From: Acetivibrio thermocellus ATCC 27405
GTDB lineage: Bacteria; Bacillota; Clostridia; Acetivibrionales; Acetivibrionaceae
DNA length: 64,000 nucleotides
Reading direction: 5' to 3'
Assembly (NCBI RefSeq): GCF_000015865.1
Contig: NC_009012.1
Location: 930,001 to 994,000, forward strand
Notes under the pieces: generated by a model
The model's database searches: none
What the model saw: only the letters and a program-made list of their open reading frames with translations
Told to the model about the DNA's origin: nothing
Shown: one piece after another, positions 6,992 through 63,808 of the stretch
Layout: each line of letters opens with the position of its first letter
Numbering within the stretch: position 1 is the first letter of the stretch
Position numbers and translations under genes: made by a program

Positions 6992-9259
6992 TTAAACTAT
7001 TCTTTTAAACATTTTTTCAAATTCATATTTTGTAATCTTAACAACAGTCGGTCGCCCGTGAGGACAAGTATATGGATTTTGAAGCATGTTGAGCTTGTCC
7101 AAAATGGCTTTTATTTCGATTTCATCAAGTTTCTTGTTTGCTTTTACCGCCGACTTGCATGCTATCTGGTATAATGCATCTTCCTCAATAATTTTATCAT
7201 ATTTCCTGCCCTTTGACATTAAAAAATCCACAACTTCCAAAAAGGCTTCTTTAACGCCGACACCCTCGTCCGGGATCGGCACCGAACGAAGTATAATAGA
7301 ATTATTGCCAAAGCTTTCGAAAATAAAACCTAATTTATTAAATAATTCTTTTTCTTCTTCAAGAAAAACAATTTCCTGGTTTGTAAGCTCTATAACCACA
7401 GGTGTCAAAAGGTACTGCGCGAGACTCTCATTTCTCGCATACTTTTCTTTGAGCTCTTCAAAACGTATTCTTTCATGGGCCGCATGCTGATCAATAATTA
7501 TCAGGTCATCTTCGTTCTGAAGCAGAATATATGTTGAGAAAACCTGTCCGATTATTCTGGCATCAAGAAATACATTTCGTTCAATATCCTGCTGCGGCCG
7601 GGTATCTTTACCGTCACGGATTTTCTCAAAATTCGTATCAGCATTATTATCGACATCATTACGATTATCTTTAGGCTTATCGCTGACATCTTTTAAAATA
7701 TTATCATAACCGCTTTTGTCAAAATTATAACACTCTTCGCCAGTGCCCTTTAAAGCTGTGCCATCAGATTTTTCAATCAGCTTGTCATTAGTCTTGTTAA
7801 TTGGCTCATTAATTGCCCAATTAACCAAGCCACTGATTTGCCCGTTAATCAAATTATCAACCGACTCGTTTTCAACTTCGTTTACATTAACCTTATTTAC
7901 AACTTCACCTTTATTTATAACTTTATCTTTATTTATAACTTTGTCTTTATTTATAACTTCATCTTTATTTATAACTTCATCTTCACTTATAACTTTATTT
8001 TTATCTCCAACTTCATTTTTGTTTATAACTTCATCTATAGTTTCATCTTTTCGTTTATTAATATTGGCGCTCTCTTTAACAATTAAATTTTCCCACGTGC
8101 TTTTAGACGTATTGGTCTTTTCAGTTTTAAAATCTTCATCATAATTGTATCCTGAAAACTTCCTGTCCGTATCCAGCCTCTGCTGCACATAGTCGGCTTC
8201 CTTTTTTGAAGACTGCTCAAATTTGAAATAATTCTTCGGACTGTCTTTAAGGGAAACATTTCTTATATGGGTTTTACTGAGCAGAGCATTGTTTACGGCG
8301 TGGTAAACGGCTCTGAATATCTCCTGTTCCCTCGAAAACCTTACCTCCATTTTTGTAGGATGCACATTGACATCCACCAACAGCGGATTTAATTCTATAT
8401 ACAGCACAATAAAAGCAAATTTGTTTTTCATAAGATATGTTTTATATGCTTCGTCAATCGCCGAAGATATAACCTTGTTTTTTATATATCTTTTGTTTAA
8501 ATATATGGACTGATAATTCCTGTTTGCTCTTGCTATTTCAGGACTTCCAGCATATCCGGTTATCTTTACGGTCTCATCCTCATAGGAAATCTCCATGCAT
8601 TCTTTTGCAGTCTCTTTTCCGTACAAACTGTATATGGTACTCAAAAGATCGTTATTGCCCGGGGTATGAATAACAGTGTTTTTGTTGTTGATTAGTCTGA
8701 AGGAAATATCGGGATTTCCAAGAGCAATTCTGCTTACTATATCGGAAACATATCCAGCCTCGGTGGAATCCTTTTTCAAAAATTTAAATCTGGCAGGAGT
8801 GTTGTAAAAAAGATCTCTTACTATAAATGTTGTACCGGCAGGACATCCTACCTGGCCGGACTCTAAAACAGTTCCGCCCTGGATTTTTACATACCTTCCG
8901 TACTCCCTGTGGGCCGGTCTTGAAGTTACCTCAACGGTGGAAACAGAGGCAATACTGGCAAGAGCCTCACCTCTAAATCCAAGGGAGGTAATCGCCTCAA
9001 GGTCACTTGCCCTTCTTATCTTGCTGGTAGCATGTCTTTCAAAGGCAATTTCAATATCGTCCTCTTCGATTCCGCTTCCGTTGTCAACCACCTTTATAAA
9101 AGATATTCCGCCATTGTTTATTTCCACCGATATATTGGTACTTCCGGCATCAATAGAGTTTTCAACAAGCTCTTTTACCACGGAAGCCGGCCTTTCCACC
9201 ACTTCTCCGGCCGCAATCTGATTTGCCGTATTTTCATCGAGTATAATGATTCTCCCCAT
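6992..9259 (-). CDS. mutL: DNA mismatch repair protein MutL
   Basis: Links MutS mismatch recognition to strand removal. The 755-residue protein has the GHKL ATPase domain at about 1-330 (TANQIAAGEVVERPASVVKELVENSIDAG, DNGSGI, LGFRGEAL) and a dimerisation/endonuclease domain at about 560-755. The metal-binding nuclease motif is DQHAAHERIRFEE, followed by ACKSAVKANKKL and CPHGRPT, so strand nicking is expected. The linker holds a hexapeptide repeat encoded by an 18-bp tandem repeat (7893-8036). Start is ATG at 9259 (MGRIIILDENTANQ) after AAAGG. Confidence 0.97.
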   Translation of the reverse strand: MGRIIILDENTANQIAAGEVVERPASVVKELVENSIDAGSTNISVEINNGGISFIKVVDNGSGIEEDDIEIAFERHATSKIRRASDLEAITSLGFRGEALASIASVSTVEVTSRPAHREYGRYVKIQGGTVLESGQVGCPAGTTFIVRDLFYNTPARFKFLKKDSTEAGYVSDIVSRIALGNPDISFRLINNKNTVIHTPGNNDLLSTIYSLYGKETAKECMEISYEDETVKITGYAGSPEIARANRNYQSIYLNKRYIKNKVISSAIDEAYKTYLMKNKFAFIVLYIELNPLLVDVNVHPTKMEVRFSREQEIFRAVYHAVNNALLSKTHIRNVSLKDSPKNYFKFEQSSKKEADYVQQRLDTDRKFSGYNYDEDFKTEKTNTSKSTWENLIVKESANINKRKDETIDEVINKNEVGDKNKVISEDEVINKDEVINKDKVINKDKVINKGEVVNKVNVNEVENESVDNLINGQISGLVNWAINEPINKTNDKLIEKSDGTALKGTGEECYNFDKSGYDNILKDVSDKPKDNRNDVDNNADTNFEKIRDGKDTRPQQDIERNVFLDARIIGQVFSTYILLQNEDDLIIIDQHAAHERIRFEELKEKYARNESLAQYLLTPVVIELTNQEIVFLEEEKELFNKLGFIFESFGNNSIILRSVPIPDEGVGVKEAFLEVVDFLMSKGRKYDKIIEEDALYQIACKSAVKANKKLDEIEIKAILDKLNMLQNPYTCPHGRPTVVKITKYEFEKMFKRIV
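7893..8036 (-). repeat. 18-bp tandem repeat inside the mutL linker
   Basis: Eight 18-bp units on the plus strand resemble TTATTTATAACTTTATCT. The central four (7911-7982) differ at only one or two bases; the outer units are more diverged. On the coding strand each unit gives a charged hexapeptide such as DEVINK or DKVINK. The unit is a multiple of three, so gain or loss changes linker length without shifting frame. Confidence 0.9.
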
Positions 9260-9328
9260 AACAAATAACCTTTCTATAGTTAAAATTGACAACCCTTTTA
9301 AATTGCCTTTAAGTTACCTCAACTTTTT

Positions 9329-11941
9329 CTACCCTTTTACCTTTTTTTGAAGATTGTATAATACATTTATTGCATCAAGCGGTGTCAAAGTCGTAATATC
9401 AAGACTCTTTAATTCATTCAGAACCTCATCATAACTTCTCTGGGCGGCGTTAAACGTAAATACGTCAATTTGCCCCTCAATGGGCTGTTTTCTCCTTGTA
9501 ATACGTTTTTCCTTCCTGGTTATGTCCGCATCTTCCAATTTTTTTAATATTTCTTTTGCCCTGTGAATAACAGGATCCGGTATGCCTGCAAGCCTTGCAA
9601 CCTGCACGCCGTAGCTGTTGTCGGCTCCGCCCCTGAGTATTTTTCTTAAGAAAATTATATCTTCTCCCTTTTCCTCCACGGATATGCAATAATTCTTTAT
9701 TCCTTCAATTCTTTCTTCCAGTTCGGTAAGTTCATGGTAATGGGTGGCAAAGAGCGTTCTTGCCCCTATCTTCTCACCGATATACTCAATTACAGCCCAT
9801 GCGATACTCAGTCCGTCATAGGTGCTTGTACCCCTGCCTATCTCATCCAATACCAACAGGCTTTTTGACGTGGCATTGCCAAGGATATTCGCAACTTCGG
9901 ACATTTCCACCATAAAGGTACTCTGGCCTGCTGCCAGGTCATCCGAAGCGCCTACCCTTGTAAATATCCTGTCAACTATGCCTATTTTGGCACTTTTGGC
10001 GGGAACAAAGCTTCCTATTTGGGCCATAAGCACAATCAACGCCACCTGCCGCATATATGTCGACTTACCCGCCATATTAGGCCCGGTAATTATAGCAATT
10101 TGGTTTTCATCCATGTCAAGATAGGTATCATTGGGAACAAAGGCTTCCTGCCCGATTATCTTCTCTACCACAGGATGCCTTCCGTCTTTAATTTCAATTT
10201 TGTCGTCATCGGTCACTTCCGGCATAGTATAGGATTCCCTGTCCGCCACTTCCGCCAGTGAGCATAAAACATCGATTCTGGCAAGACTTCTTGCCGTGGT
10301 CTTTAATCTGTTTATTTCTTTTGCAACCTTGTTCCTCACATCCACAAATATCTGATATTCAAGCTCTACAAGCCTGTCCTCCGCACCCAATACGGTATTT
10401 TCAATTTCCTTCAGCTCCGGTGTTATGTACCTTTCGCAGTTCGCCAAGGTCTGTTTCCTTATATAATCATCCGGTACTTGTGAGTAGTAGGATTTGGTCA
10501 CTTCAATGTAATAGCCGAAAACCTTGTTAAATCCCACTTTCAAATTTTTAATACCGGTTCTTTCCCTCTCTTTGCTCTCTAAATGTGCAATCCACTTCTT
10601 TCCGTCTTTTGATGCGCTTCTTAGCCTGTCCACCTCCTCATTAAAACCTTCTTTTATGATTCCGCCTTCTTTAACCGCAACAGGCGGGTCATCGACTATA
10701 GCCTTGTCAATAATTTCATACACATCAGTTAGTGTATCCAATTCATTGTAGCTTAAAACATTAAGATCGGCTTTTAAATCACGAAGAAGCTCCTTTATAT
10801 ACGGAACCTGTCCGATAGAGTGTTTTATCGATATCAAATCGCGGCAATTGGCACTTCCCAGAATAACCTTTGTCATCAGCCTCTCAATGTCATAAACCGC
10901 TCTTAAAAGCTCCCGTACTTCGCTTCTTATCATAAACCTTTCTTTAAACTCGTTTACCGCATCAAGCCTGTCCTTTATATCATGGAGGTTTATAAGGGGC
11001 TGTTCAATCCATTTTCTCAGGGTTCTTCCGCCCATGGAGGTCATGGTTCTGTCCAAAACCCAAAGAAGGGAGCCTTTTCTGTTCTTTTCCCTCATGGTCT
11101 CCGTAAGTTCAAGGTTTCTTCTGGTGGCCATGTCCAGAATCATGTACTCTTCAATCCTGTAGACGTTAAAATTCTGAATATGGCTTAAATTCACTTTCTG
11201 CGTCTGCTCCAAATATTCCAAAAGAGCTCCGGAAGCATTTATGTATAAATCAAACGCATTTTCTTCAATCACATAATCCTTAAAATAATTTCTTACCTTC
11301 TGTATGGAAAACTCCTTTTCAAAAAATTTGTCCTCCAAACCGGAGATATAAACATCAAACCTTTGTTTTAAAGTCTTTTTGATGTTTTCGTCATGAAAAA
11401 ACTCACCGTTTACAACAATTTCCGATGGTGAGAATTTCGCTATTTCATCCATTAATTTGTTGAAAGTGTTGCCGAAGGTAATGTGTGTCGACAAAAACTC
11501 TCCTGTGGTAAGATCAACACATGCAATACCGTAATAGTTTTTGTTTTTATAAATCGACATAAGATAGTTATTCTTTTTTTCATCCAACATAGCGGAATCG
11601 GTCACTGTACCGGGAGTAACAATCCTGATTACGTCCCTCTTGACCAATCCTTTTGCCAGCGCAGGATCTTCAATCTGCTCACATATCGCAACTTTATAAC
11701 CTTTGCTAATCAGTTTCGCAATATATGAATCCGCTGAATGAAAAGGCACTCCGCACATGGGAGCTCTCTCTTCAAGGCCGCAATCTTTTCCCGTAAGCGT
11801 TATTTCCAGTTCCCTTGAAGCTACTTCCGCGTCAGAGAAAAACATTTCATAAAAGTCTCCCAATCTGAAAAAAAGGATACAGTCCTTGTACTGCTCCTTT
11901 ATTTCAAGATACTGTTGCATCATAGGTGTCAATGAAGCCAT
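9329..11941 (-). CDS. mutS: DNA mismatch repair protein MutS
   Basis: Mismatch-recognition ATPase. The 870-residue protein has the N-terminal mismatch-binding motif FFRLGDFYEMF (Phe-x-Glu), connector and lever domains, and a C-terminal ABC-type ATPase with GPNMAGKSTYMRQ near residue 620, LLVLDEIGRGTSTYDG (Walker B and D-loop) and ATHYHEL. The start is ATG at 11941 after GAGGTAAGAAAAG. It precedes mutL by about 70 bp and follows a YlbF-family gene by about 30 bp. Confidence 0.98.
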   Translation of the reverse strand: MASLTPMMQQYLEIKEQYKDCILFFRLGDFYEMFFSDAEVASRELEITLTGKDCGLEERAPMCGVPFHSADSYIAKLISKGYKVAICEQIEDPALAKGLVKRDVIRIVTPGTVTDSAMLDEKKNNYLMSIYKNKNYYGIACVDLTTGEFLSTHITFGNTFNKLMDEIAKFSPSEIVVNGEFFHDENIKKTLKQRFDVYISGLEDKFFEKEFSIQKVRNYFKDYVIEENAFDLYINASGALLEYLEQTQKVNLSHIQNFNVYRIEEYMILDMATRRNLELTETMREKNRKGSLLWVLDRTMTSMGGRTLRKWIEQPLINLHDIKDRLDAVNEFKERFMIRSEVRELLRAVYDIERLMTKVILGSANCRDLISIKHSIGQVPYIKELLRDLKADLNVLSYNELDTLTDVYEIIDKAIVDDPPVAVKEGGIIKEGFNEEVDRLRSASKDGKKWIAHLESKERERTGIKNLKVGFNKVFGYYIEVTKSYYSQVPDDYIRKQTLANCERYITPELKEIENTVLGAEDRLVELEYQIFVDVRNKVAKEINRLKTTARSLARIDVLCSLAEVADRESYTMPEVTDDDKIEIKDGRHPVVEKIIGQEAFVPNDTYLDMDENQIAIITGPNMAGKSTYMRQVALIVLMAQIGSFVPAKSAKIGIVDRIFTRVGASDDLAAGQSTFMVEMSEVANILGNATSKSLLVLDEIGRGTSTYDGLSIAWAVIEYIGEKIGARTLFATHYHELTELEERIEGIKNYCISVEEKGEDIIFLRKILRGGADNSYGVQVARLAGIPDPVIHRAKEILKKLEDADITRKEKRITRRKQPIEGQIDVFTFNAAQRSYDEVLNELKSLDITTLTPLDAINVLYNLQKKVKG

Positions 11942-11972
11942 CTTTTCTTACCTCACGTACAAGATTTATTAT

Positions 11973-12365
11973 CTACAAAGATTTATTTCTACAGCCGCTG
12001 CATGAACTGCAGTCATCTGACGGACAAGGCTCTTCGCCGGAAATTGAATAAACCAGCACATCATTAACTTTTTTTATAAGCCTATCCAATTTTTCTTTTG
12101 ACTCAATATAATTTCTGGTTATTTCATTATTGTTTATTTCATCAAATTTCGACAACAGTCTTTCCTTTATATCATCTATAACACTTTTATCCTTGTCTTC
12201 CTGTGCCGCTCTGACCATTTCCGTCTGCAAATATTGATACTCACGAAGTATGGCCCTTGCTTTGTGGTCTCTTTCAAGGCTTGCTTCCCACTTTTTGTAG
12301 TTTGTCATTTCGTCCGAATTGCTGATCAATTCTCCAAGCTCTTTCGCCTTCGTAAAAATATCCAT
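11973..12365 (-). CDS. YlbF/YmcA-family regulator
   Basis: A 130-residue, mostly helical protein of the YlbF/YmcA family. Bacillus relatives join the Y-complex that promotes RNase Y mRNA maturation and influences Spo0A activation. The family pattern KAKELGELISNSDEMTNYKKWEASLERDHKARAILREYQYLQ is visible in residues 5-46. A cysteine-rich tail (PCPSDDCSSCSGC) could bind an Fe-S cluster or metal, as Bacillus YlbF and YmcA do. Start is ATG at 12365 behind GGGTGA. It is next to mutS, as in many clostridia. Which paralogue it represents is not certain. Confidence 0.85.
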   Translation of the reverse strand: MDIFTKAKELGELISNSDEMTNYKKWEASLERDHKARAILREYQYLQTEMVRAAQEDKDKSVIDDIKERLLSKFDEINNNEITRNYIESKEKLDRLIKKVNDVLVYSISGEEPCPSDDCSSCSGCRNKSL

Positions 12366-12508
12366 ACCAATCACCCTTTATCCGGTATTATATTCATTAT
12401 TTCATTATTGCAGCCAGCAAAGCTCTGTATAATCACGTAAATTTAACTGTTTTTCTCACTAACTCTTATTAACCTATTGTACCATAAAATTATCGAAAAA
12501 ATAACATT

Positions 12509-13861
12509 CTAGTAGAAAAATTTATTAAATCTCATAGGGGTATAGAAATTTTGAGTATAGGTAATTTCGTTTTCATTACCAATGTAAACTCCGACTCCAA
12601 GGCGCTCAAAGTTTCCAAGTATATTTAACCTGTGTCCCTGGGAATTCATCCATCCCTCATGGGCAAATATCGCCTCCGTTTGTCCCATTGCAATGTTTTC
12701 TCCAGCAGATGAATACGATATTCCGGCTTTTTTCATTCTGTCAAAAGGACTTTCCCCTTGCAAATTTGTATGGGAAAAGTAATTGTTTAAAACCATATCT
12801 TCACTGTGAGCCCTTGCAACTTTTGCTATCTCATCATCCCATTCAAAGGGTTTTAATCCATACCTTGCTCTGACGGTATTTGCAAGATCAAAAACTTCCC
12901 TCTCAAAGCTTATTCTAAGCTCTTCGGAAGGCTTGCCGTAATAACCGTGAAGGGCTCTTTCCGTCTCACAATCAATCAAAAGGTACGACGTAACTTTGTT
13001 CTCATCAAAGATATCAAAAAATACAGTCACAAAATATTGATCATTTACATTGAACACCTTCTGTTCATTCGAATTTTTCATCATGTAATAAGTATTTCCT
13101 TTTTTTATGTATTCCAAAGGTTTTCCCAGTTCTTTTTCCGCACTTATACCATCCGTTCCAACCCCTATGGCTTCATTGAGCCGGTAGTAAGGAGAGTTGG
13201 TAAATACTCCAACCACTTTGTCATCTTCTATCCCTATTTGAATATATTTCAGAAGATTATTATTATAAATATACCAGTCAAAACCGTATTTGCTCAAATC
13301 AATACGGTCAGGTTCCCCAAATGTCTCTATTACGTCACTTAGGGATGCCCCAATTAACGTGCTTACCTTCCCGTCAAATACAAATTCCTGAGTTTCAGGA
13401 TCTTCGTCCTCAACATTTTCGTCATATGTATTGATAATAACCGTTCTTGTAGCATCATCCCATCCTACACTTGCGCCAATACTTTCAGATATAAATCTTA
13501 CAGGAACAAGGGTCCTTCCTTCTACAATCCTGGCCGGTACGTCAAGCCTCACCGCATTGTCATTTATATAAGCTATGTTACTGTTGATTTTAAGAGTGAT
13601 TACAATGTCATTTTTATAAACATTTACTTTTTTCGATTCCGGAACCCATTCAACATCTGCATTGATAGACTCAAACACCCCACGAACAGGCACAAGGGTC
13701 CTACCGTTTTCTATAACAGGCGGCACATCCAATTGTAAGTATTGACCATTTACGCATATTTTTATATCACTTAAAGAATAAATATCAAAAGCACCGATTG
13801 AAAACAAAACCGTAAATACAGTAAGAAAAAGAGCCAACCTTTTTAGCATTAATTTTTTCAT
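12509..13861 (-). CDS. Secreted CAP/SCP-domain protein with copper-amine-oxidase-like N-terminal domain
   Basis: A 450-residue exported protein. A signal peptide covers about residues 1-30. Two stabilising repeats of the copper-amine-oxidase N-terminal type follow at about 35-145 (ENGRTLVPVRGVFESI and VEGRTLVPVRFISESIGA), then a CAP-associated region at about 165-290, and a C-terminal CAP (SCP/PR-1) domain at about 325-445 with ARAHSEDM, AGENIAMG and GHRLNILG. Clostridial and Bacillus relatives (YkwD-like) are cell-wall or spore associated, and their chemistry is mostly unknown. Start is ATG 13861 or the adjacent GTG 13864, both after AGGAG. Confidence 0.9.
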   Translation of the reverse strand: MKKLMLKRLALFLTVFTVLFSIGAFDIYSLSDIKICVNGQYLQLDVPPVIENGRTLVPVRGVFESINADVEWVPESKKVNVYKNDIVITLKINSNIAYINDNAVRLDVPARIVEGRTLVPVRFISESIGASVGWDDATRTVIINTYDENVEDEDPETQEFVFDGKVSTLIGASLSDVIETFGEPDRIDLSKYGFDWYIYNNNLLKYIQIGIEDDKVVGVFTNSPYYRLNEAIGVGTDGISAEKELGKPLEYIKKGNTYYMMKNSNEQKVFNVNDQYFVTVFFDIFDENKVTSYLLIDCETERALHGYYGKPSEELRISFEREVFDLANTVRARYGLKPFEWDDEIAKVARAHSEDMVLNNYFSHTNLQGESPFDRMKKAGISYSSAGENIAMGQTEAIFAHEGWMNSQGHRLNILGNFERLGVGVYIGNENEITYTQNFYTPMRFNKFFY

Positions 13862-13913
13862 CACAATTCATCTCCTGATAAAAAATAACGCAATTTACTT
13901 ATAATAATATACT

Positions 13914-13933
13914 ATACGATTATAATATCGTAT
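13914..13933. promoter_or_regulatory. Perfect inverted repeat upstream of the CAP-domain gene
   Basis: ATACGAT at 13914-13920 and ATCGTAT at 13927-13933 flank TATAAT, about 50 bp upstream of the start. The spacer resembles a -10 hexamer, so the palindrome may be an operator over a promoter. No regulator can be named. Confidence 0.4.
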
Positions 13934-13966
13934 ATTTTGCCGCTTCTTTCAATAGGAAATTATTTT

Positions 13967-14650
13967 TCAAAGCACAACTTCTTCTTTCAAGCTTTCAAGC
14001 AAATTTATCACTTCATGCAGTGATTTTAATTCTCTATACACCAATTCTTCGACTTCGTCAGGTCTTCTCATGTCAGGAATAAGCACCGGAAACATTTTGG
14101 CTCTTGAAGCCGCTTTTATGCCGTTCGCAGAGTCCTCCAGCACAATACACTCTTCAGGTCTTTTGCCTGTTCTTCTTGCAGCCTCAAGGAATATGTCGGG
14201 TTCGGGCTTTCCTCTCTCCACTTCATCTCCGCAGACAATGGCATCGAAACGTTCTCTGATGCCGGCCAAAGTTAAATATTTTTCCGTTCTTTTTCGCTCT
14301 GTAGACGTTGCGACAGCTTTCATTATGCCCCTATGGTCAAGATAGTCCAAAAGTTCGAAAAGCCCCGGCTTTACAGGCATACCGTTTTTTTCAATATAAT
14401 CCAGCACATATTTCACCCTAAGGTCTCTTATATCATAAAAGGGCAAATCGTTGCCGTAATATTTTTTGAAAACTTTCTCTATGCTCTTGACATTCAAACC
14501 AGTCATATCCCTTAAAAATTCTTGCTTTATTTCTATACCGAAAGATTTTGCCGCCTCATGCCAGCCTAAAACTCCAATTCTTTCGGTGTCAAACATCAAG
14601 CCGTCCATATCAAAAATAACCAATGAAATCTTATACTTTTTCATAGCCAC
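13967..14650 (-). CDS. HAD-superfamily hydrolase, beta-phosphoglucomutase-like
   Basis: A 227-residue subfamily IA HAD phosphatase/phosphomutase. Motif I is VIFDMDGLMFDTE (nucleophile and acid Asp), motif II is VATST, the motif III lysine is in VERGKPEPDIF, and motif IV is CIVLEDSANGIKAA. A small four-helix cap lies between motifs I and II. Substrates in this group are sugar or nucleoside phosphates and cannot be fixed from sequence. The GTG at 14650 lies ten bases after AAGGA; ATG at 14644 is an alternative. Confidence 0.88.
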   Translation of the reverse strand: MAMKKYKISLVIFDMDGLMFDTERIGVLGWHEAAKSFGIEIKQEFLRDMTGLNVKSIEKVFKKYYGNDLPFYDIRDLRVKYVLDYIEKNGMPVKPGLFELLDYLDHRGIMKAVATSTERKRTEKYLTLAGIRERFDAIVCGDEVERGKPEPDIFLEAARRTGKRPEECIVLEDSANGIKAASRAKMFPVLIPDMRRPDEVEELVYRELKSLHEVINLLESLKEEVVL

Positions 14651-14712
14651 TTTACCATTATCCTTTTCTTAATTTTTTTAAATTTTTTATAAAATTATTA
14701 AAAATTTTTTTC

Positions 14713-15201
14713 TTATACTTCTTCTTTTAATTTTTCTGCCTTTACAAGCATTTTTGACATTTTGTGAAAACAAAGAACATGTCCGTTTTTCGTAACAATT
14801 TTGTTGTATTCTATCGGAACATAGCCCCTTTTTTCGTAAAGACTGTACGCAGGCAGAGAAGAATCCAGCACAACATTGGCATAACCTTTGTTTGCTGCTT
14901 GTTGCTCAAGTCTGTCAAGCAACATGCTACCGTATCCTTTGCCTTGAAATTCCGGCAAAACAAACATTCTTTTAATTTGATTTTCATAAATGGCACCTGT
15001 GCCGACAATCTCTCCGTCACATTCAATCAGAAGAATAAATTCAATGTTTACGGCTTTCTTGATATTCTCCAATGAATGGTGTGTAAGAAAAAAATCCACT
15101 ACTCCTTCCGGGTAATATTTTGGATACACTTCTTTAATTGTGGAATGAACAATACTGTGTATTACTTCAACATCCTTAAAATCGGCTTTAATAAATTTCA
15201 T
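14713..15201 (-). CDS. GNAT-family N-acetyltransferase
   Basis: A 162-residue GNAT acetyltransferase. The acetyl-CoA binding motif A appears as IKRMFVLPEFQGKGYGSMLLDRLEQ (QGKGYG loop), followed by VVLDSSLPAYSLYEKRGY, a typical C-terminal motif B. The substrate is unknown. Start is ATG at 15201 after GGGTGAG. It shares the minus-strand run with the HAD gene, 60 bp downstream. Confidence 0.9.
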   Translation of the reverse strand: MKFIKADFKDVEVIHSIVHSTIKEVYPKYYPEGVVDFFLTHHSLENIKKAVNIEFILLIECDGEIVGTGAIYENQIKRMFVLPEFQGKGYGSMLLDRLEQQAANKGYANVVLDSSLPAYSLYEKRGYVPIEYNKIVTKNGHVLCFHKMSKMLVKAEKLKEEV

Positions 15202-15373
15202 AGACACTCACCCTGTTTTCCCGGCATCTACACATTTTTTGGATGTTTTCTTTTTATTATTATTATAACATATACTATTCTAGTTTTTTACCATATGTCA
15301 ACCTTGGCCGGCCGCCTCATTCAATCGGAATTTCAGGCAATCGGAATTTCAGGGTAAATAAATATTGCGCGCG

Positions 15374-15930
15374 TCAATTAATTTTAAACTTGCCCACCAA
15401 TTCATGCATATCCTTTGCCGATTGCGCCAACAGGCTTGATGAATTTGTAATTTTATCCATAGTTTCCGTTTGAGTTTCCAAAGATGCTGCTATTTCTTCA
15501 ATAGAAGCAGAAGTGCTTTCGGCAACTTCCATTGTTTGATAGAAGGATTTTGTAAAGAGTTTACTGCTCGAAACCACCCTTTCGGTGACAACCACCAAAT
15601 CATTGACCTTTTCAATAATATCTCTGGTATTGTTATTTATCATATTAAAGGCGTTCTTGGCATCGGATACCACCAAAATACCTTTTTCAGACTGTGCTAT
15701 TGTCGCATCCGCTATATTTATGGTTTTATTTATATATGTCTTTATATCCGAAATTATTTTATTTATTTCAACAGTTGAGATGTGTTCTTCTGACTTTCCT
15801 GATTTGGAGTAATTGTTTCCGCTTTGGGTTTGCTGGCGCATGCAGCAGTAAAAATTAATGAAAGTGTGACAGCAAATAAAAGCGCACACTTCCATTTGTT
15901 ACTAAATGCCATTTTCATTTTTTTATTCAT
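15374..15930 (-). pseudogene. Broken fusion: lipoprotein N-terminus joined out of frame to a chemoreceptor signalling tail
   Basis: From ATG 15930, after AAAGGA, one frame encodes 55 residues: a basic start, a hydrophobic stretch and a lipobox (LIFTAAC, lipidated Cys at about residue 31). It stops at TAA 15763-15765. In a second frame from about 15790 to 15374 lies the C-terminal half of a methyl-accepting chemotaxis signalling domain, ending ASIEEIAASLETQ ... LAQSAKDMHELVGKFKIN. That half has neither the conserved hairpin tip nor a membrane part. A lipoprotein is extracytoplasmic and an MCP tail cytoplasmic, so this is best read as a deletion scar between two genes. The open frame up to 15895 in the MCP frame is an artefact of the lipoprotein sequence. 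Confidence 0.75.
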
Positions 15931-16307
15931 TCCTTTCACAAATTAAAATTTTTTATTGATTAGATCAATTACTACATATAATGCCAACCACAAAAAAGTT
16001 TTATAAGCCTTTTGCTTGGTTGACGCATTTGATTTTATGTAAACCTAGATTCTGAAAATTTTATCGGAAGGGATATAAATTTACTGAATAATTCTTTTGA
16101 TATTAGACTTTGATAAAATATTGACAGAATTAATAGCCATACCCATGGAATTTTCCTGTTTGTAACGCAATTTCAATAAAAAAAGCCGTATAGGCTTTTA
16201 ATAAACATTTCTTAAAAATTATCCTTTTATTTTAAACTAAGAAGCAAGATAAGCACAATGAAAGTACTGTTATTCTCTTGCCTTTTTACTTGTAAATCAT
16301 TCTATTT
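15931..16307. other. Non-coding stretch between miaB and the broken lipoprotein gene
   Basis: About 380 AT-rich bases with no supported gene on either strand. The only clear structure is the miaB terminator at 16181-16199. The part next to 15931 should hold the promoter of the lipoprotein remnant, but no convincing -35/-10 pair was found. Confidence 0.6.
16181..16199 (-). terminator. Rho-independent terminator of miaB
   Basis: AAAAGCC-GTATA-GGCTTTT forms a short stem. On the minus strand the second arm runs into a T tract. It lies about 110 bp downstream of the miaB stop. Confidence 0.7.
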
Positions 16308-17750
16308 TCACCTTACTATGCTGCCCTCCAGCGACCAAGTTTTTACAGTATTTATTCTTACATTCACCAACTTACCTATCAAACTTGCATCAGCCTCAAA
16401 ATTAACAACTTTGTTTCCCCTTGTCCTTCCTGTAAAAATCTTATCATTTGTCTTGCTGACACCCTCAACAAGAACTTCAACCACTTTGCCCAAAAAAGTG
16501 TCATTTATTTCCTTGCTTATCCTGTTCTGCGTTTCAAGAAGTCTCTGGAATCTTTCCTTCTTCACTTCTTCCGGAACCTGATCCTCCATTTTGGCCGCAG
16601 GCGTACCGGTTCTCTTTGAATACAGGAAAGTATATGCGTTGTCAAATCTGACTTTTTCAAGAATATCCAGTGTGTCTGAGAAATCTTCCTCCGTCTCACC
16701 GGGAAATCCCACGATAATATCAGTGGTAAGTGCAATATCCGGTATATTTTCCTTAATCTTTGCTACAAGATTAATATAATCCTCCTTGGTATACTTTCTG
16801 TTCATCAATTTCAGTATTCTGGTGCTTCCCGCCTGAAACGGAAGATGCAAATGTTCACATACCTTTTCACAGTCTCTCATGGCATAAATCAAATCATCGG
16901 ACAAATCTTTCGGATGGGATGTGGTAAACCTGATTCTTTCAATCCCGGGTATCTTGTTAACCTCACGTATCAACTCGGCAAAACTTGTACCGTCTCCAAT
17001 GTCTTTTCCGTAAGAGTTTACATTCTGCCCCAGAAGTGTTATCTCCTTAAACCCTTGACGTCCTAACATCCTTACTTCTTCAAGAATGTCATCCATTGAT
17101 CTGCTTCTTTCCCTGCCTCGTACGTAAGGAACAATACAATAGGTGCAAAAATTATTGCAGCCGTACATTACCGTAACCCAGGCCTTCACCCCGTCTTTTC
17201 TCTCAATTGCCACATTTTCAGCTATTTGGCCGTCGCAATCCCAGACATCAACAACAGTTGTCTGAGAATCCATCGCACTGTACAAAAGCTCAGGAAACTT
17301 ATACAGGTTGTGCGTTCCAAATATCAGGTCAACATGACTGTATGTCTTCTTTATATGCTCCACAACTTCCGGCTGCTGCATCATACAACCGCATACAGCG
17401 ATCACAAGATCCGGTTTTTGATTTTTAAGGGGCTTTAACATTCCAAGATGCCCGTATACCTTAAGCTCGGCATTTTCCCTTACGCAGCATGTATTGTAAA
17501 TAACCAAATCGCTTTCGTTTACGTTATCCGTTTCAGCATATCCCATTTCAGCCAACATTCCCGCAAGTTTCTCCGAATCATGTTCATTCATCTGGCAACC
17601 GAAAGTATTAAGACAATAAAGCTTCTTCTTTCCGGTCTTTACTTCCTTCCGATAGTTTAATTCTTTAATCTCGTCAATAAACCGCTGCTGTCTTGCCATT
17701 TCCTCCGGAGAAACATAAATATTTTTCCTGTCCCTTGTACCCTTACTCAA
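16308..17750 (-). CDS. miaB: tRNA-2-methylthio-N6-dimethylallyladenosine synthase MiaB
   Basis: Radical-SAM methylthiotransferase that turns i6A37 into ms2i6A37, acting after MiaA. The 480-residue protein has the UPF0004 domain with three cysteines ([23 protein letters not shown]), the radical SAM motif [20 protein letters not shown] and a C-terminal TRAM domain. The start is TTG at 17750, nine bases after GGAGG, with no better ATG nearby. miaB normally sits next to ylbF-mutS; here about 3.6 kb of other genes lies between them. Confidence 0.96.
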
Positions 17751-23677: not shown

Positions 23678-23946
23678 CTCTCATCCCAAAAAGGGACGAG
23701 AGTATTCTCACGCGGTACCACCCAAATTTATTATGAATATATATTCATATATATATTCATAATCACTCAATTTGATTAACGGCTCATCACCGGCCAAGCT
23801 TACTCGGAAAGCTTTGACCCCTTTCAGCCGGCAACTCGTAGATGATTTTCAAAGGCTGGCTTTACAGGATTCGCACCGACCACCTGCTCTCTTCAAAAGC
23901 TTCACCTTCTACTCGTTCTACTCATCGCTTTTGTCACTATTCAATT
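23678..23946 (-). promoter_or_regulatory. T-box riboswitch leader of ileS (tRNA-Ile sensing)
   Basis: On the minus strand the leader contains the T-box core GGGTGGTACCGCG (about 23711-23723). It is followed by a terminator with arms at 23678-23687 and 23693-23702 and a T run. Upstream, a Stem I with an AGAG-like box and an AAAATCATC segment offers ATC (Ile) as specifier codon at about 23841-23846. Uncharged tRNA-Ile would stabilise the antiterminator and allow ileS transcription. The long AT palindrome at 23731-23760 lies just before the antiterminator. Confidence 0.93.
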
Positions 23947-55958: not shown

Positions 55959-56828
55959 TTACTTCATGCTCTCTCCTCTGTCATAAATTTTACCTCTTAA
56001 CACATCGAAAAAGTTTTTTCCATTCAGCCTGACCATAGGCATCCTTATCCGGGACTTTTTTGTTATGATCACATCCCCGCCTCTTACCTCATAGCCATTC
56101 TGCCCGTCTACGGTAACCATAGCTTCATGGCTGCTGCTTTCGGCCACCACCACTTTTATCACCCTGTCGGCCGTAGTTATAAAAGATCTTGAATACAAAA
56201 GGTGCGGGCATATGGGGGTACAGATAATCAAATCCACATCCGGCTCCACCAAAGGTCCTCCCGCCGAAAGAGAATAGGCCGTAGAACCCGTCGGTGTCGA
56301 GATAATCAGCCCGTCTCCCGGATAAAGATCCATAAAGGCATCGTTAATATATGTTTTAAGATGCAAAATCCTGGATATTGCTCCCCGGGAAATAACAACA
56401 TCATTTAAGACAATATCCTCTGCAATTATTTTGCCGTCCCTTACAATAACGGTATCAAGCATCATTCTTTCGTCGACGGTAAATTTATCCTCAACCAGCC
56501 GCTTTACCGCATTTTCAATATCGTTCTTGTCGACATCCGCCAAAAAACCCAGCTTCCCAAGATTAACACCCAAAAGCGGCTTGCCTTTTACCACAGTCAT
56601 TCTGGCTGCCTTAAGAAAGGTACCGTCACCCCCAAGACATACCATGACATCGGACATATCCACTATGTTGTCCTCATTGATATTTGATTCTTTATCTCCG
56701 AGCTTTAATGCAATATCATCGCATACAATAGCCGTTCCGCCGCATTTTTTTATGCTGTCTACAAGAATCCTGGTATATTTAAGTTCTTCGTCCTTGTCTT
56801 CATTAGGTATTATTCCGATTTTCAACAT
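55959..56828 (-). CDS. nadK: NAD kinase
   Basis: Phosphorylates NAD+ to NADP+. The 289-residue protein has the GGDGT motif ([14 protein letters not shown]), [36 protein letters not shown] and the C-terminal [14 protein letters not shown] at 56828 ([11 protein letters not shown]) lies five bases after GAGGG. Upstream extension to 56861 has no family match. It is the first gene of nadK-argR-recN. Confidence 0.96.
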
Positions 56829-57180
56829 TATATCCCTCTTTGCTCTGAAAAAGTAAGCCAACCCAACATTCTAATATTTTGTATTATGGTCGTCTCCAAA
56901 TAATCCCATACATTTAATATGAAATTAAACAAGATCTTTTCGCAATAATTATATAAAATAAATTTCAAAAGCACAACATTTAACAATCTTTTAATCATAT
57001 TAATTATAATTATTTCTTTAGTTTTTTTCGATATTTAATAATAAGCGGTACAATGCTGTTTAAGCTGTACATGGCTTAATTTTCCGTATTTTAATTGTAT
57101 ATTCATCGGAGTTTTATACCTGTGTATTCAGTATACATTTTTCATGAACATTGTATGATTTTCAGGAGTTGATAACAAAT
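56829..57180. other. Divergent intergenic region, nadK / giant signalling gene
   Basis: About 350 AT-rich bases between the minus-strand nadK and the plus-strand signalling gene. It must contain both promoters. No ORF, hairpin or recognisable operator stands out. Confidence 0.5.
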
Positions 57181-60100
57181 ATGAACATCATTAACAACAG
57201 ATACAAGGTAATTACAACTATCAAGGAAGACTTGTCAAACACATTATACCTTGTTTCAGATATGATAAATGACAACAAAAAAATGGCTTTTAAAATCATC
57301 AATCCGGAACTTATATCTCCAAAAAACTTAGAACAGCTAAAGAAGGAATTTGTAACTCTTTCTTCACTGTCCCATCCCAATCTTATGCAAATTTACGGGT
57401 TTGGAACAATAAATTCCATTGACGGGAGCCTGACTTCATCCAAACAATTTTATTGCACCTATGAATATATAAAAGGTAAAAATATAATCAGCGCCGTCTC
57501 AGGCACGAGTTTTGAAAAGAAAATTGACATTATTCTCCAAATATGCAATGCACTTTATTATTTGCACAGAAGAGGATTTTTCCTCAAAAATCTTGACCAT
57601 AAAAGTGTTGTTGTAACCGAAACAGACGGCAATCTTTGCGTAAAACTGATTGGAATGCCGGGAAATGAAGAAATGGAAAAAGTAGTTTTTCGTTTAAAGA
57701 AAATATCCAATCAGTTTAAATTTCCGGAAGATTTAAAATCCTCAAATAATAACAGCAATCTTGCTGATCTCTATTCACTGGGCGTTTTAATCTTCTATAT
57801 TCTGACGGGTAAAAATCCTAACAGATGTAATTTCTTGAATATTTGGGAACAATGCAAAAACAATCCTTCCGTCTTAAAATCGGTACCGGACAACATAGAC
57901 AAAAAAAGGTTGCTGGGAATTATTTCTAAACTTACATTAACAAATCCTGAAAATCATTACAAGAGTGCATACTCTGTAATTAAAGATATTGAAAAAGTAT
58001 GCGGTATAAAAGAAACCCGTTTTCAGAAAAAATGGTTTGAAAAAATTATAACCAAAACCAAGCTGATAGGAAGAGAAGAAAACATAAACCGTTTGAATTC
58101 ATGGATAAACGATATTTCAAACAATAACTGCAGTCAAAAAATAACTTGTATAACCGGTGAAGCCGGTATTGGAAAAACAAGGCTTTTAGGTGAACTTATG
58201 TTCTCGCTGAGTCTTGAAAAAACAAGGGTATTGCATGGGGTGTCCTCTGAAAACGCGGAAAACACTTATGAACCGATAAAACAAATACTGGAGCAGTTAA
58301 TCCCTTATGCACCGGCCGAAATATTGGAAAGTTTCAAATCCGAGCTGGTAAAAATTTTGCCCGACGAAAAAAGTTTAAAAGGAGCGGTTCCGAGTCCGGC
58401 TCTGCCTGATGAAAAGGAAAAACTAAGGCTTAAGGTGAGAGTTGGAAATTTCATAGCCAATGTTTTGGAGAAAGAACTGTCTGTTTTGATATTTGACAAT
58501 GCTCAATGGATGGATGAAGCATCTTTAGAGCTTATCGACTATCTTGCCGGCTCAAAAAAGATTCCTCTTTGCATAATTCTGTCCTACCGGAAAGAGTCCA
58601 TGAACAAAAACAAGTCAGGACAAAAATACATCGAAAAATGGCTGAGCTCATCCATTGCCAACGAGATAACCTTAAGTCGTTTTGACTTTGAAGAAACTTG
58701 TGAATTTATAAAAAATGTTCTTGCAATAACAACCTCCCCTGCCGCTTTCTGTACGGAAATGTTCCGTTACACCGAAGGAAACCCGGGGTTTATAATAGAC
58801 GCTATTACGGCATTGTTCAAGGAAGGAAAGCTGTACATTGATGACAGCGGGCAGTGGAGCACTGATTTTGATGAAGATGCGGACTATTCCAGGCTCTATA
58901 TACCCCCAAGCATGCACGAAGCTGTGTGGAAGCATATCAATACTTTGGATAAGATTTCGTATGAAACTTTGGAAACAATTTCTGCTTTTAACATGCCTGT
59001 CTCTCTTGAGATAATCGAGTCAATATTGGAAGCCTCTCATAATGAGATAAAAGACATACTGGCAGAACTTATTTCCCACCAGATAATAGAACAGAGGCTT
59101 GCCGACTGGGGTTACACTTATGATTATCACTCAAAAAAAATTAAAAATGAAATCTACAAGAAAATTGAACCTTCCAGAAAAAAAGCACTTCACAAAAAGT
59201 GCGCCAAAATTTTGGAGGAAATGTATAAAGACGACAACAGAATAAACAAGGATGAGCTTATTTATCACTATATAAAAACCGGCGAAAAGCAAAAGGCACT
59301 GAACATCATTATAGAATCCGCCGACAGAATGTTAAAGCTCCACATCAATGCCCAGACCATGGTTTATCTCAAAAGAGGACGTCAGATAGCAAAAGAAATT
59401 TCTTCTGTAAAAGATACCATAAAAATCCTTTTAATGATGGGTGAACTCTACCGCAAAAAAGGAGAAAACCGTAAAGCCTTTGAATGCTACAATGAAGCTT
59501 TGAAATATGCCAGGGAACTTAATGACAAAGCAACAATTGCGAAAGTCAAGGAAATGATCGGAGCCCTGTACACAAGAAAAAATGATTTTGACCGGGCACT
59601 GCTTTTCCTCAATGACTCTTTGTCACTGTCCAAAGAAATAGGATATGTGGAAGGCTATCTTGAAGCCGTCCGCCGTATATGCTGGGTATATATATTCAAA
59701 GGAAAAAACAAAGAAGCAATAGACATGATTAACAATGTTCTTTCAGAGTACAGTGATGAAAAATACTCCCTCTATCATGCCTCGCTTTACAACGTTCTTG
59801 GTACCCACTATCTGGAGCAGTCAAATATAGACGAGGCTTTGAGATGCTACAATAAAAGTATAGAGCTTTATGAAAAAAACAATGAAAAAGTTGAAATAGC
59901 TTATCCCTTAAACAATATTGCCACTGTATTTGCCGAATTCTTAAATGATAATGCAAAAGCCCGGGAATATTTTGAAAAATCCCTTCAGATAAACCTTGCA
60001 AACAACATGGTTGAAGGGATATCCAGCTGTTACGACAACCTCGGCGAAACCTACCGGCTGGAAGACAATTACACCCAGGCTCTGGAATATTATTTTAAGT

Positions 60101-62661
60101 GTGAAGAGCAGGCAAGGGAATGCGAGCTCAATTCCCTTTTGTTCACGGTATATAAAAATATCATGCTTGCTTATCTGGAACTTTGCGAATACCAAAAATC
60201 CTATGAATATCTGCAAAAAGTAAAACAGGAAATGGAAAAAAATTCAGACCGCGGGCATGACGTTCAGATTTTCTATGAATATGCAGCAAAATATTACTTT
60301 GAAATAGGGTGTTTTGAAGAAGCAAAAAACATGGCTCAAAAAGGAATAAACACATGCAAAAAGTTATCCACCAGTGAAAGCCTGACTTTAAATTGCATTA
60401 TACTTCTTTCGGAATACTATGTCTCAAACCAAAAAGATTCAGAGCTTCTTTTCGAGGATGCTCTTACTCTGCTGAAAAGGCATAAACAAAGCTCAACTGT
60501 AAAAGAACAAAGAGACATGATTCATTTGCTTGCCGAAGCACTTATTGCTTCCGGCAACACGGAAGCTTCCCTAAGCCTTTTGGAAAAAAGCCTGGAGCTT
60601 AGCGCAACCGTAAATACAAAAAAGCTGGAAATAGAATACCTTATACTTTACGGTGCCAGCATAGGCGGGAACTGCGGAATAGAAACCATTAACAGCGGAC
60701 TAAAGTTAAACGCTGAGTACAAAAGCCTACGTTTAAAATGGAAAGGCTATAAAACAATTGGCGATATTTATTATTCCATGAAGGAAAAAAGTTTGGCCGG
60801 CATAAACTATATAAAGGCCTTGGACGCACTGTATCATCTTGTACAAAAAGTTCCTGTTGAATTTCACGGTTGCTTTTTGTATTCTCACAACCGCGAGGAG
60901 TCCAGGTTCAGGCTCCTTTCACTCAAGGCTGACGAGCTGAAAGAACAAGAATTGTCAATCGAAAAGCACATAAACAATAAAATCAACAGTGGTAAAAACA
61001 TCGTCCAACATTTCTTTGAAGGAATAAATCATGAATTCGTACTCAAAGGGGCCGAAAGCGCTATGGCGTTGGACAGCGCTCAAAGCCATGCTTCAAAAGC
61101 AATCGAAGAAAAGCTTGGGATGATAGAAAGCTTGTTTATGAAGTTTACGCCGGATTATTTAAGCAACCTCAAGATGATCCTTGAAACCGCATGCGACCTG
61201 ACATCGGCAGAGACAGGATATATACTGCGTTACAACGATAAAAACGAACTGGATGCCTTTGTTGCTTATGATAGCAACACTGAAGCCAATTATTACAGTT
61301 ACATAATCGAACGTACCAATGAAAATATTGAAGGAATATTTGCAGCTCAAAGTTTTGACAAAAAAGCAGGAAATATTGATATTTTCCTTCCCGGAAACAT
61401 CAAAGCCGTTATATGTATTCCCATATACAGCCATGAATCCGGGGACAGATATTCGTCTGTAAAACCGTCAAAAAGAAAACGCCGGGAATCAAACGATTAC
61501 AATATTAAAGGATATATTTATCTTTCAACCAAAAACGTATTCAACAGATTCTCATGGCAAACCTTCGGCATGGTTAAGCTTCTTTCAAAAATTGCGGCAC
61601 TGCAAATAGAAAATTACGACCTTAAAATAATTTCAACCACCGACAAATTGACCGGAACATATACAAGAAAATTCTTCGAAAATGCCATTGAAACACAACT
61701 TAAAAAGGCAAGCAGGGAAAAAAGCCAGATGTCAATAATTATGATTGATATCGACAAGTTTAAGAGCATAAATGACAACTATGGTCATCAAAAGGGAGAC
61801 GAGATTCTCTCAAAAGTCGGAAATATTCTGCTTAAGAATATCAGACCGACAGATATTTGCTGCAGATACGGAGGCGAGGAATTTGTAATAATACTTCCGG
61901 ATACAGGACCCTCCGAGGCCGAAGCCCTGGCTGAAAGGCTTAGAAGCACGGTGGAAAAAGCCCGCTTGATGGGACAAGGAAACAGTCTTACCATAAGTCT
62001 TGGTATATCCTGCTATCCGAAACACGGCAGCATACGCAATGAACTCATTGAAAAAGCCGACCAGGCCCTTTATCATGCAAAAGAATCGGGCCGAAACCGT
62101 TACTCTCTCTGGAATACAAAAATGAAAAAGCTGTCTAAAAGAATGGACAAACTTGCCGGCATTATATCCGGCAATGTAACCCACGATCAAAGAAATGTTC
62201 TGGCATTGCTGGAAATCGTCAGACTCTCCAACGAAACAATGCTTTTTGATGATAAAATATACCGAGTGCTTGGAACAATAATAGACACTTTCGATGCGGA
62301 ATACGGAGTTTTAATTGTCTGCCAGGAGCAAAATCCAAAAACTTTAAAGGTCTATGCAAGAAAAAGTACAGTACCGGGATGGGTTGAGGAAGAATGCTAC
62401 AACAAAAAAATCGTAGACAAAGTACTGAAACAAAAAGCAGGAGCTTACATGGTGGACTGGGACAATGCCAACGTAATTGATTTGCAAACCGGCGAAACCG
62501 TACTCAATTCAATATTGGTTGAACCCATATTAAGAGGAAAGGAAGTAAAAGGCGTCCTCTACCTCTCCCGCCCCATCAACCGGAAAGAATACGGCTTTAA
62601 TGAATTGAACTTCCTCAGTGCTTTGGGAAACGTTATATCCGGTATATTATCAATGCCGTAA
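57181..62661 (+). CDS. Giant signalling protein: pseudokinase - ATPase - TPR - GAF - GGDEF - GAF
   Basis: A soluble protein of 1826 residues. Residues about 8-275 have a Ser/Thr-kinase fold; the VAIK-type Lys38 remains, but HRD reads LKN (135-137) and DFG reads GMP, so it should be catalytically dead. Residues about 300-560 form an AAA16/STAND-type ATPase with GEAGIGKT (326-333) and LIFDNAQWMDE. About 700-1200 is helical TPR repeats. A GAF domain lies at about 1325-1475. The GGDEF domain has active-site GGEEF (1564-1568) and an inhibitory RxxD site RPTD (1555-1558), so it should make c-di-GMP. A second GAF lies at about 1690-1826. AGGAG precedes ATG 57181 by 12 bases. It is monocistronic. Confidence 0.88.
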   Translation: MNIINNRYKVITTIKEDLSNTLYLVSDMINDNKKMAFKIINPELISPKNLEQLKKEFVTLSSLSHPNLMQIYGFGTINSIDGSLTSSKQFYCTYEYIKGKNIISAVSGTSFEKKIDIILQICNALYYLHRRGFFLKNLDHKSVVVTETDGNLCVKLIGMPGNEEMEKVVFRLKKISNQFKFPEDLKSSNNNSNLADLYSLGVLIFYILTGKNPNRCNFLNIWEQCKNNPSVLKSVPDNIDKKRLLGIISKLTLTNPENHYKSAYSVIKDIEKVCGIKETRFQKKWFEKIITKTKLIGREENINRLNSWINDISNNNCSQKITCITGEAGIGKTRLLGELMFSLSLEKTRVLHGVSSENAENTYEPIKQILEQLIPYAPAEILESFKSELVKILPDEKSLKGAVPSPALPDEKEKLRLKVRVGNFIANVLEKELSVLIFDNAQWMDEASLELIDYLAGSKKIPLCIILSYRKESMNKNKSGQKYIEKWLSSSIANEITLSRFDFEETCEFIKNVLAITTSPAAFCTEMFRYTEGNPGFIIDAITALFKEGKLYIDDSGQWSTDFDEDADYSRLYIPPSMHEAVWKHINTLDKISYETLETISAFNMPVSLEIIESILEASHNEIKDILAELISHQIIEQRLADWGYTYDYHSKKIKNEIYKKIEPSRKKALHKKCAKILEEMYKDDNRINKDELIYHYIKTGEKQKALNIIIESADRMLKLHINAQTMVYLKRGRQIAKEISSVKDTIKILLMMGELYRKKGENRKAFECYNEALKYARELNDKATIAKVKEMIGALYTRKNDFDRALLFLNDSLSLSKEIGYVEGYLEAVRRICWVYIFKGKNKEAIDMINNVLSEYSDEKYSLYHASLYNVLGTHYLEQSNIDEALRCYNKSIELYEKNNEKVEIAYPLNNIATVFAEFLNDNAKAREYFEKSLQINLANNMVEGISSCYDNLGETYRLEDNYTQALEYYFKCEEQARECELNSLLFTVYKNIMLAYLELCEYQKSYEYLQKVKQEMEKNSDRGHDVQIFYEYAAKYYFEIGCFEEAKNMAQKGINTCKKLSTSESLTLNCIILLSEYYVSNQKDSELLFEDALTLLKRHKQSSTVKEQRDMIHLLAEALIASGNTEASLSLLEKSLELSATVNTKKLEIEYLILYGASIGGNCGIETINSGLKLNAEYKSLRLKWKGYKTIGDIYYSMKEKSLAGINYIKALDALYHLVQKVPVEFHGCFLYSHNREESRFRLLSLKADELKEQELSIEKHINNKINSGKNIVQHFFEGINHEFVLKGAESAMALDSAQSHASKAIEEKLGMIESLFMKFTPDYLSNLKMILETACDLTSAETGYILRYNDKNELDAFVAYDSNTEANYYSYIIERTNENIEGIFAAQSFDKKAGNIDIFLPGNIKAVICIPIYSHESGDRYSSVKPSKRKRRESNDYNIKGYIYLSTKNVFNRFSWQTFGMVKLLSKIAALQIENYDLKIISTTDKLTGTYTRKFFENAIETQLKKASREKSQMSIIMIDIDKFKSINDNYGHQKGDEILSKVGNILLKNIRPTDICCRYGGEEFVIILPDTGPSEAEALAERLRSTVEKARLMGQGNSLTISLGISCYPKHGSIRNELIEKADQALYHAKESGRNRYSLWNTKMKKLSKRMDKLAGIISGNVTHDQRNVLALLEIVRLSNETMLFDDKIYRVLGTIIDTFDAEYGVLIVCQEQNPKTLKVYARKSTVPGWVEEECYNKKIVDKVLKQKAGAYMVDWDNANVIDLQTGETVLNSILVEPILRGKEVKGVLYLSRPINRKEYGFNELNFLSALGNVISGILSMP

Positions 62662-63133: not shown

Positions 63134-63808
63134 TTATCTCATAAGATACTTACGCTGTTCTATTAAGAAAGCTGATACAACATACAACACCAGCCCTGTT
63201 AGCCAATGGGCCACGGCATATTTCAGCGAGGACTCAAAAGGCTTCGGATTAATCCATTGGCATGTATGCCAAAGCCAACTGGCCCCTCCTCTGTAAAAAA
63301 AGCTTATAGCAACCCACAAAATCGGAATGCCGTAACCAATTATAAGTTGTCTGCTCACTAAAAAAGCCGTCATTCCGAAACCTGACACAAAAAAGAGGGC
63401 TCCTGCAATTAAAAATATATCAACAATGCCATACTCAAGTCTGTCACCATCACTTATAGAATATATAAAATACAGTAGCAGCAATACAAAACCGGTATAT
63501 ATTGCAAACAGTCTCAACATTCTCAGAAAACCGTATTTAAACCCGTCTATGGGAAGTGACAATATCAATTCTTTGCTTTCCGGTTGTACAATTTCCATAT
63601 AAGGGGTTAGTATCCAGGCCAATACACCAACTACCGATACTACAAACACAGTCGTCTGAAGCAAAATATATTTTGTCGCCGCTCCTCCCATAAGCACAAG
63701 GAAGAATATCATAACTGCCGCAAAGGCAAGCAGTATAAAATACCCAACATAACTTACCGTTTTCAAATCAAAAATCAAAGGTACCATCTTATTTACGCGT
63801 TTATCCAT
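63134..63808 (-). CDS. ABC-2 type transporter permease subunit (probable)
   Basis: A 224-residue integral membrane protein with about six hydrophobic segments (near 15-38, 45-67, 95-117, 127-150, 155-175, 198-216). The intracellular loop PESKELILSLPIDGFKYGFLRM is like the coupling region of ABC-2 permeases. It overlaps the preceding ATP-binding subunit gene by 16 bases, so the two are translationally coupled. The substrate is unknown. ATG at 63808 lies nine bases after GGAGGAAGG. Confidence 0.75.
   Translation of the reverse strand: MDKRVNKMVPLIFDLKTVSYVGYFILLAFAAVMIFFLVLMGGAATKYILLQTTVFVVSVVGVLAWILTPYMEIVQPESKELILSLPIDGFKYGFLRMLRLFAIYTGFVLLLLYFIYSISDGDRLEYGIVDIFLIAGALFFVSGFGMTAFLVSRQLIIGYGIPILWVAISFFYRGGASWLWHTCQWINPKPFESSLKYAVAHWLTGLVLYVVSAFLIEQRKYLMR

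Follow-up and report, generated by a model that had tools for sequence, protein, structure and literature searches.

An N-terminal pseudokinase joined to a MalT-type STAND NTPase and a predicted diguanylate cyclase in Acetivibrio thermocellus

What can a protein kinase fold contribute to an enzyme predicted to produce c-di-GMP once its catalytic residues are gone? This question is raised by one gene of Acetivibrio thermocellus (C. thermocellum) ATCC 27405, found at positions 57181-62661 (+) of the window, i.e. the whole stretch of 64,000 nucleotides that was analysed. According to the ORF translation and Pfam, it encodes a pseudokinase-STAND-TPR-GAF-GGDEF-GAF protein of 1826 aa. The ORF runs over 1826 codons without a stop, from an ATG start preceded by AGGAG. 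An earlier note, based on the letters of the DNA, had proposed a dead Ser/Thr kinase reduced to a scaffold or ligand sensor driving c-di-GMP synthesis. The idea of a non-catalytic module placed ahead of an intact GGDEF domain stands, and sensing through its ATP lysine, Lys38, is not supported. All features below lie on the + strand unless stated otherwise and are given in window coordinates.

The gene and its surroundings

The gene is probably Cthe_0817, since the adjoining NAD kinase corresponds to Cthe_0816, a name given to the NAD kinase of ATCC 27405 in two papers, one of them PMC5327387. In the literature on Cthe_0815-0818, mentions are restricted to this NAD kinase, and a literature search for a pseudokinase combined with GGDEF returned no relevant paper. 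The divergent nadK gene (55959..56861, - strand) lies on one side; on the other, the ORF list gives a convergent gene for a hydrophobic protein of 224 aa (63134..63808, - strand). Both are considered to lie outside the system, and the gene is indeed monocistronic, as had been proposed. Synteny with nadK, argR and recN is restricted to Acetivibrio, the neighbours being lineage-specific in other relatives, and no conserved operon partner was found in the relatives' loci. No riboswitch was detected by Rfam 5' of the gene, and the sites returned by a promoter scan were no better than shuffle expectation. The sole Rfam match in the window is a T-box leader (23689-23934), located upstream of an isoleucyl-tRNA synthetase-like gene. 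The window also contains cellulosome-type genes, assigned by eye, and a MutL-like ORF (6992-9292) with a low-complexity stretch of VINKDK-type repeats in its middle.

A kinase fold without its catalytic residues

The pseudokinase domain covers residues 1-278 (57181..58014). Pfam detects a Pkinase match at residues 30-215 (E 7e-16), and the AF2 model of residues 1-740 has a pLDDT of 87 and a pTM of 0.83. Structure comparison of the modelled domain gave VIA Z scores of about 21-23 to protein kinases, for example 22.7 to PknS, with an rmsd of 3.1 over 246 aligned residues. The kinase fold announced for residues 1-290 is therefore predicted with high confidence, and the failed fold prediction that would have spoken against it did not occur. 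The positions of the motifs were set by alignment to the intact PrkC-type kinase of the same genome (G000 701466) and to related sequences. This alignment confirmed the replacements in the catalytic loop that had been read from the sequence: LKN stands at the HRD position (residues 135-137, 57583..57591), GMP at the DFG position (residues 158-160, 57652..57660), and the Lys and the Asn of the loop have become D139 and S142. The protein has the features of the pseudokinase class, namely a kinase fold in which the HRD Asp has become N137 and the DFG Asp G158.

The survey of homologues showed this loss to be conserved. The HRD Asp is found in 0/34 family members, being replaced by N in 19, by S in seven and by other residues in the rest, so that no homologue in the family has an intact HRD motif. 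The DFG Asp is present in 5/34 members and the catalytic-loop Asn in 9/34. Lys38 (57292..57294) occupies the ATP lysine position in the window protein, as had been noted, but is not family-conserved: Lys is found there in six of the 34 members and Arg in 20. The helix-C Glu (E56) is likewise a Glu in six, and no Gly loop is left. Judging from the residues at Lys38 and from the missing Gly loop, it appears unlikely that sensing ATP through the kinase site is a family-wide function. The APE motif is kept (Pro in 30/34 members, Glu in 29/34), as are the Asp and the Gly of DxYSLG (33/34 each); these residues are structural anchors which hold the kinase fold together. Between C. thermocellum and A. 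mesophilus, simple Nei-Gojobori counting, at a dS of about 1, gave dN/dS values of 0.125 for the kinase, 0.113 for the ATPase and 0.056 for the GGDEF domain. As far as sequences can tell, kinase catalysis is lost while the fold is under selection, because the catalytic Asp is absent throughout, the anchors are kept and the dN/dS of the module is low.

The orthologues of the window protein, 39-81% identical, come from the same genus and from related genera, and more distant relatives (23-30% identity) from several other families of the class; A. mesophilus, A. straminisolvens and Acetoanaerobium noterae are among the named members. A phylum-wide search was needed to find L150, from outside the class in the same phylum, in which the kinase is dead and GGEEF is kept. 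The dead-kinase proteins form one branch (SH-aLRT 100), in quick trees that contain some long branches and whose inner order is unreliable. Each of the 19 full-length members has GGDEF and TPRs. Whether the GGDEF output arose once was examined in a tree of this domain, which is too short to give resolution. Next to the family gene in L117, L119 and L125, a divergent M23-type peptidase-like gene was recognised by eye, together with a bactofilin-like gene in two of these genomes; CheW lies a few genes away in all three.

NTPase, TPR array and cyclase

The kinase module is followed by a STAND NTPase with its winged-helix part, residues 291-690 (58051..59250), detected by Pfam as AAA_16 at residues 294-466 (E 4e-19). 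Walker A, GEAGIGKT, lies at residues 326-333 (58156..58179) and the Walker B region, DNAQWMD, at 439-445 (58495..58515), both read from alignment columns. In the model, residues 291-740 superpose on the TPR-sensor STAND protein 6mfv (Z 22.8, rmsd 3.7, 349 aligned residues) and on MalT 8bob (Z 22.7, rmsd 3.7, 372 aligned), which they resemble in fold at an identity of 13-14%; Apaf-1 is among the Foldseek matches of the NTPase part. The features of STAND proteins are thus present, i.e. a P-loop with Walker A and a STAND fold that includes the part after the NTPase, and the STAND-like ATPase described earlier could be refined to the fold of MalT-type STANDs. MalT itself activates transcription and has neither a kinase nor a cyclase. 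The TIGR03903 model (TOMM system kinase/cyclase fusion) also matches residues 291-732 (E 4e-32), but far under its cut-off (111 vs 706 bits), and no TOMM genes were noticed within the window. A TPR array extends over residues about 700-1270 (59278..60990; Pfam TPR_12, TPR_MalT).

Walker A is invariant in 19/19 full-length members (G329, G331, K332), including those of the group f37. The acidic residue of Walker B is lost in part of f37 (L118:6242-11668, L121, L122 and L124), where VSG, LKD or IKG replaces FDN and Walker A is kept. ATP hydrolysis is therefore no universal step, and what the members would share is the binding of ATP. The Walker A and GGDEF motifs were all read from alignment columns; a plain regular expression misses real f37 motifs.

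The GGDEF domain, residues 1482-1642 (61624..62106), was assigned by Pfam (residues 1486-1640, E 1.6e-50), by alignment and by its fold, its closest folds including YfiN, WspR and PleD (Z about 25-27 for the model). The model of the output part has a pLDDT of 79 and a pTM of 0.45, hence the folds of its domains are usable and their arrangement is not. Alignment columns place the GGEEF signature at residues 1564-1568 (61870..61884) and the RPTD of the I-site RxxD at 1555-1558 (61843..61854), exactly five residues before it (RPTD-ICCRY-GGEEF). Both had been described as intact, and the comparison agrees: D1488, T1491, D1523, D1525, N1531, D1532, D1558 and GGEE are invariant in the 19 full-length members, all of which keep the Asp and Thr of D-x-L-T, the metal Asp residues, N-D, G-H, GD and GGEE. 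RxxD is kept in all of them but L077, where the sequence reads IHSGD and the Arg is lost; this regulatory I-site is not universal among GGDEF diguanylate cyclases. The GGDEF domain is accordingly predicted to be a diguanylate cyclase making c-di-GMP.

Two GAF domains had also been proposed, although GAF is below the Pfam cut-off in the window protein. The second, GAF2 (residues 1672-1825, 62194..62655), could be established by a profile search with family sub-alignments, 16 of 18 members matching GAF_2 at E<=0.1. GAF1 (residues 1310-1478, 61108..61614) is a weaker assignment, which relies on the model and on a profile match to the PDE2A GAF domain (E 7e-4).

Genome-wide searches (3,843,301 bp, one contig) revealed about nine further GGDEF places, one EAL protein, 11 PilZ places and four c-di-GMP-I riboswitches. 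The c-di-GMP would thus have receivers, since PilZ, EAL and c-di-GMP-I riboswitches are all encoded in the genome. Two of these riboswitches lie in tandem on the minus strand (G000:C1 3637262-3637613), and another GGDEF place (G000:C1 2608112-2608747) has a TAG inside the match.

Related scaffolds and a possible mechanism

A protein of this type has been listed before. Krupa and Srinivasan (2005; PMC1262709) gave 'Kinase + 6 TPR repeats + GGDEF' for gi 23020879 of C. thermocellum ATCC 27405, 1826 aa, which we judge, from the organism, length and domain order given in the available part of that paper, to be the window protein. In that part, the protein is classed as a Ser/Thr/Tyr kinase (STYK) and shared downstream signalling is inferred, while the methods exclude kinases without the catalytic Asp; the listing as available there makes no mention of the lost motifs, of the NTPase or of the GAFs, and describes no family. 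More recently, the review of O'Boyle et al. (2025; PMC12599244) treated the CP1 (pseudo)kinases, a mixed group of which about 40% are dead, and described their linkage to a COG3899 ATPase together with FhlA/GAF or PAS; GGDEF, diguanylate and cyclase do not occur in the main text. The window family resembles CP1, HstK-type and trifunctional proteins in its kinase-ATPase-GAF scaffold, the kinases of which are often dead. Residues 1-740 are matched at 20-22% identity over 81-94% of their length by multi-kinase proteins and by trifunctional ones, the latter being those named 'trifunctional serine/threonine-protein kinase/ATP-binding protein/sensor histidine kinase'. Unlike the mixed CP1 group, the family is uniformly dead in our sample and has a GGDEF-GAF output, which also takes the place of the C-terminal histidine kinase of HstK-type dual Ser/Thr-His kinases. 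With proteins of Microvirga, Leptolyngbya and Legionella lytica as stand-ins for CP1-like scaffolds, the family falls into a separate clade (support 100). The Microvirga and Leptolyngbya proteins of the CP1-like clade are annotated as kinase-ATPase-histidine kinases or multi-kinases. The Legionella lytica protein (L184:5971-11769), encoded on a plasmid, has the order kinase-AAA_16-GAF-GGDEF-EAL, and its gene adjoins an annotated nucleotidyl cyclase gene.

Clostridial sister scaffolds (alignment A2) share the kinase-AAA_16-TPR-GAF order, most of them with 1600-1770 aa, and their outputs are GGDEF in 9/19 and HisKA_3/HATPase in another 9/19. They differ from the family by their separate clade and by their mostly intact kinases, with the catalytic Asp in 20/21 sequences and the DFG Asp in 18/21; in the member shown, the GGDEF domain stands at the extreme C-terminus without a GAF2 behind it. 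Independent partial decay of the kinase motifs (NFG, SFG, HRE, HRN) was observed in the sister scaffolds L083, L086 and L088 and in L154. Kinase-ATPase-GAF scaffolds with dead kinases are thus an already known category, and the new part is a uniformly dead, GGDEF-tied family.

The reading that we favour, and hold to be rather probable, is that the protein is a diguanylate cyclase gated by its STAND part, with a pseudokinase as an obligate N-terminal component. The TPR array, together with the GAFs, would perceive a signal, a partner or a metabolite; the ATP-bound NTPase would then open, and the protein would assemble like MalT-type STANDs. This assembly would pair two GGDEF domains, a step required by diguanylate cyclases, and the c-di-GMP made could shut off its own synthesis through feedback at the RxxD site. 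Beside the NTPase, the pseudokinase may act without phosphotransfer, either as a lid within the same molecule or by offering a partner protein a surface to dock on. The whole mechanism is inferred from MalT and from GGDEF enzymes in general.

The docking version has a special case, in which the pseudokinase binds a partner kinase, for example the PrkC-type enzyme (G000 701466), or its phosphorylated substrate, and turns on c-di-GMP synthesis by contact. Pseudokinases often act on active kinases by docking or allostery, and this intact kinase is available in the same genome; with no genetic linkage to a kinase or phosphatase in the loci examined, we nevertheless consider this special case rather unlikely. 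The NTPase could also be a rigid scaffold instead of a switch, control of the cyclase being left to the GAFs alone. GAF-GGDEF pairs regulate cyclases elsewhere, the GAFs directly flank the GGDEF domain on both sides here, and the degenerate Walker B of part of f37 would fit; a Walker A kept in every full-length member, f37 included, argues against such a passive role, to which we give a comparably low probability. The kinase domain might even be an enzyme or nucleotide sensor of unusual chemistry, with ATP at Lys38 as its input, since pseudokinases with other activities do exist, such as SelO and SidJ (PMC12599244), the latter catalysing polyglutamylation (PMC6858067). K38 and E56 are indeed present in the window protein and in its closest Acetivibrio relatives. 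The family counts given above for these two positions, for the DFG Asp and for the loop Asn speak against it, as do the absent Gly loop and the lack of any alternative catalytic residue set conserved across the family, which makes this chemistry improbable.

Local decay of an active kinase, or a sequencing error, was rejected and has hardly any probability left, given that 34/34 members are without the catalytic Asp and that purifying selection is observed. The family gene is split over three frames in the A. straminisolvens draft, but these breaks look like draft errors, because the spoIVB-, recN-, argR- and nadK-like neighbours are also split or shortened.

In favour of the STAND-gated reading, input and output are seen to be separable in genome G207, where two tandem family genes (L118:6242-11668 and 11806-17169) have 2322 bp in common at 99.8% identity. 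This common stretch comprises the last TPRs, GAF1, GGDEF and GAF2, whereas identity over the N-terminal 1000 residues is about 38%. Each input type has a clade of its own, which also takes in sequences of another genus. The duplication therefore predates the split of the genera, and the output halves have probably been homogenised since. An input made up of the N-terminal 1000 aa and an output made up of the C-terminal half would lead one to expect such a pattern. In many drafts of f37 and its kin (L096, L103, L105, L106, L107, L110, L112, L113, L128-L131), the matches run up to a contig end around residue 1020-1390 and go no further. In several of these genomes an output half is missing altogether; both observations are suggestive of a repeat collapsed in the drafts.

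The 2005 listing as a Ser/Thr/Tyr kinase, as far as the available part of that paper gives it, and the shared downstream signalling inferred from it are corrected by these results, and three themes are joined in one protein: bacterial pseudokinases, STAND switches and c-di-GMP. Among similar scaffolds, some have an active kinase, some a histidine-kinase output and some a dead kinase. This amounts to a natural experiment, so that the non-catalytic contribution of the kinase part can be tested, and this in a non-pathogenic organism. A bolder picture, which we put forward only tentatively, is that of a Bacillota diguanylate cyclase family run by a pseudokinase on a MalT-type STAND switch, in which some lineages would combine several input halves with one gene-converted output half. 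If true, a constant c-di-GMP output would stand behind different inputs.
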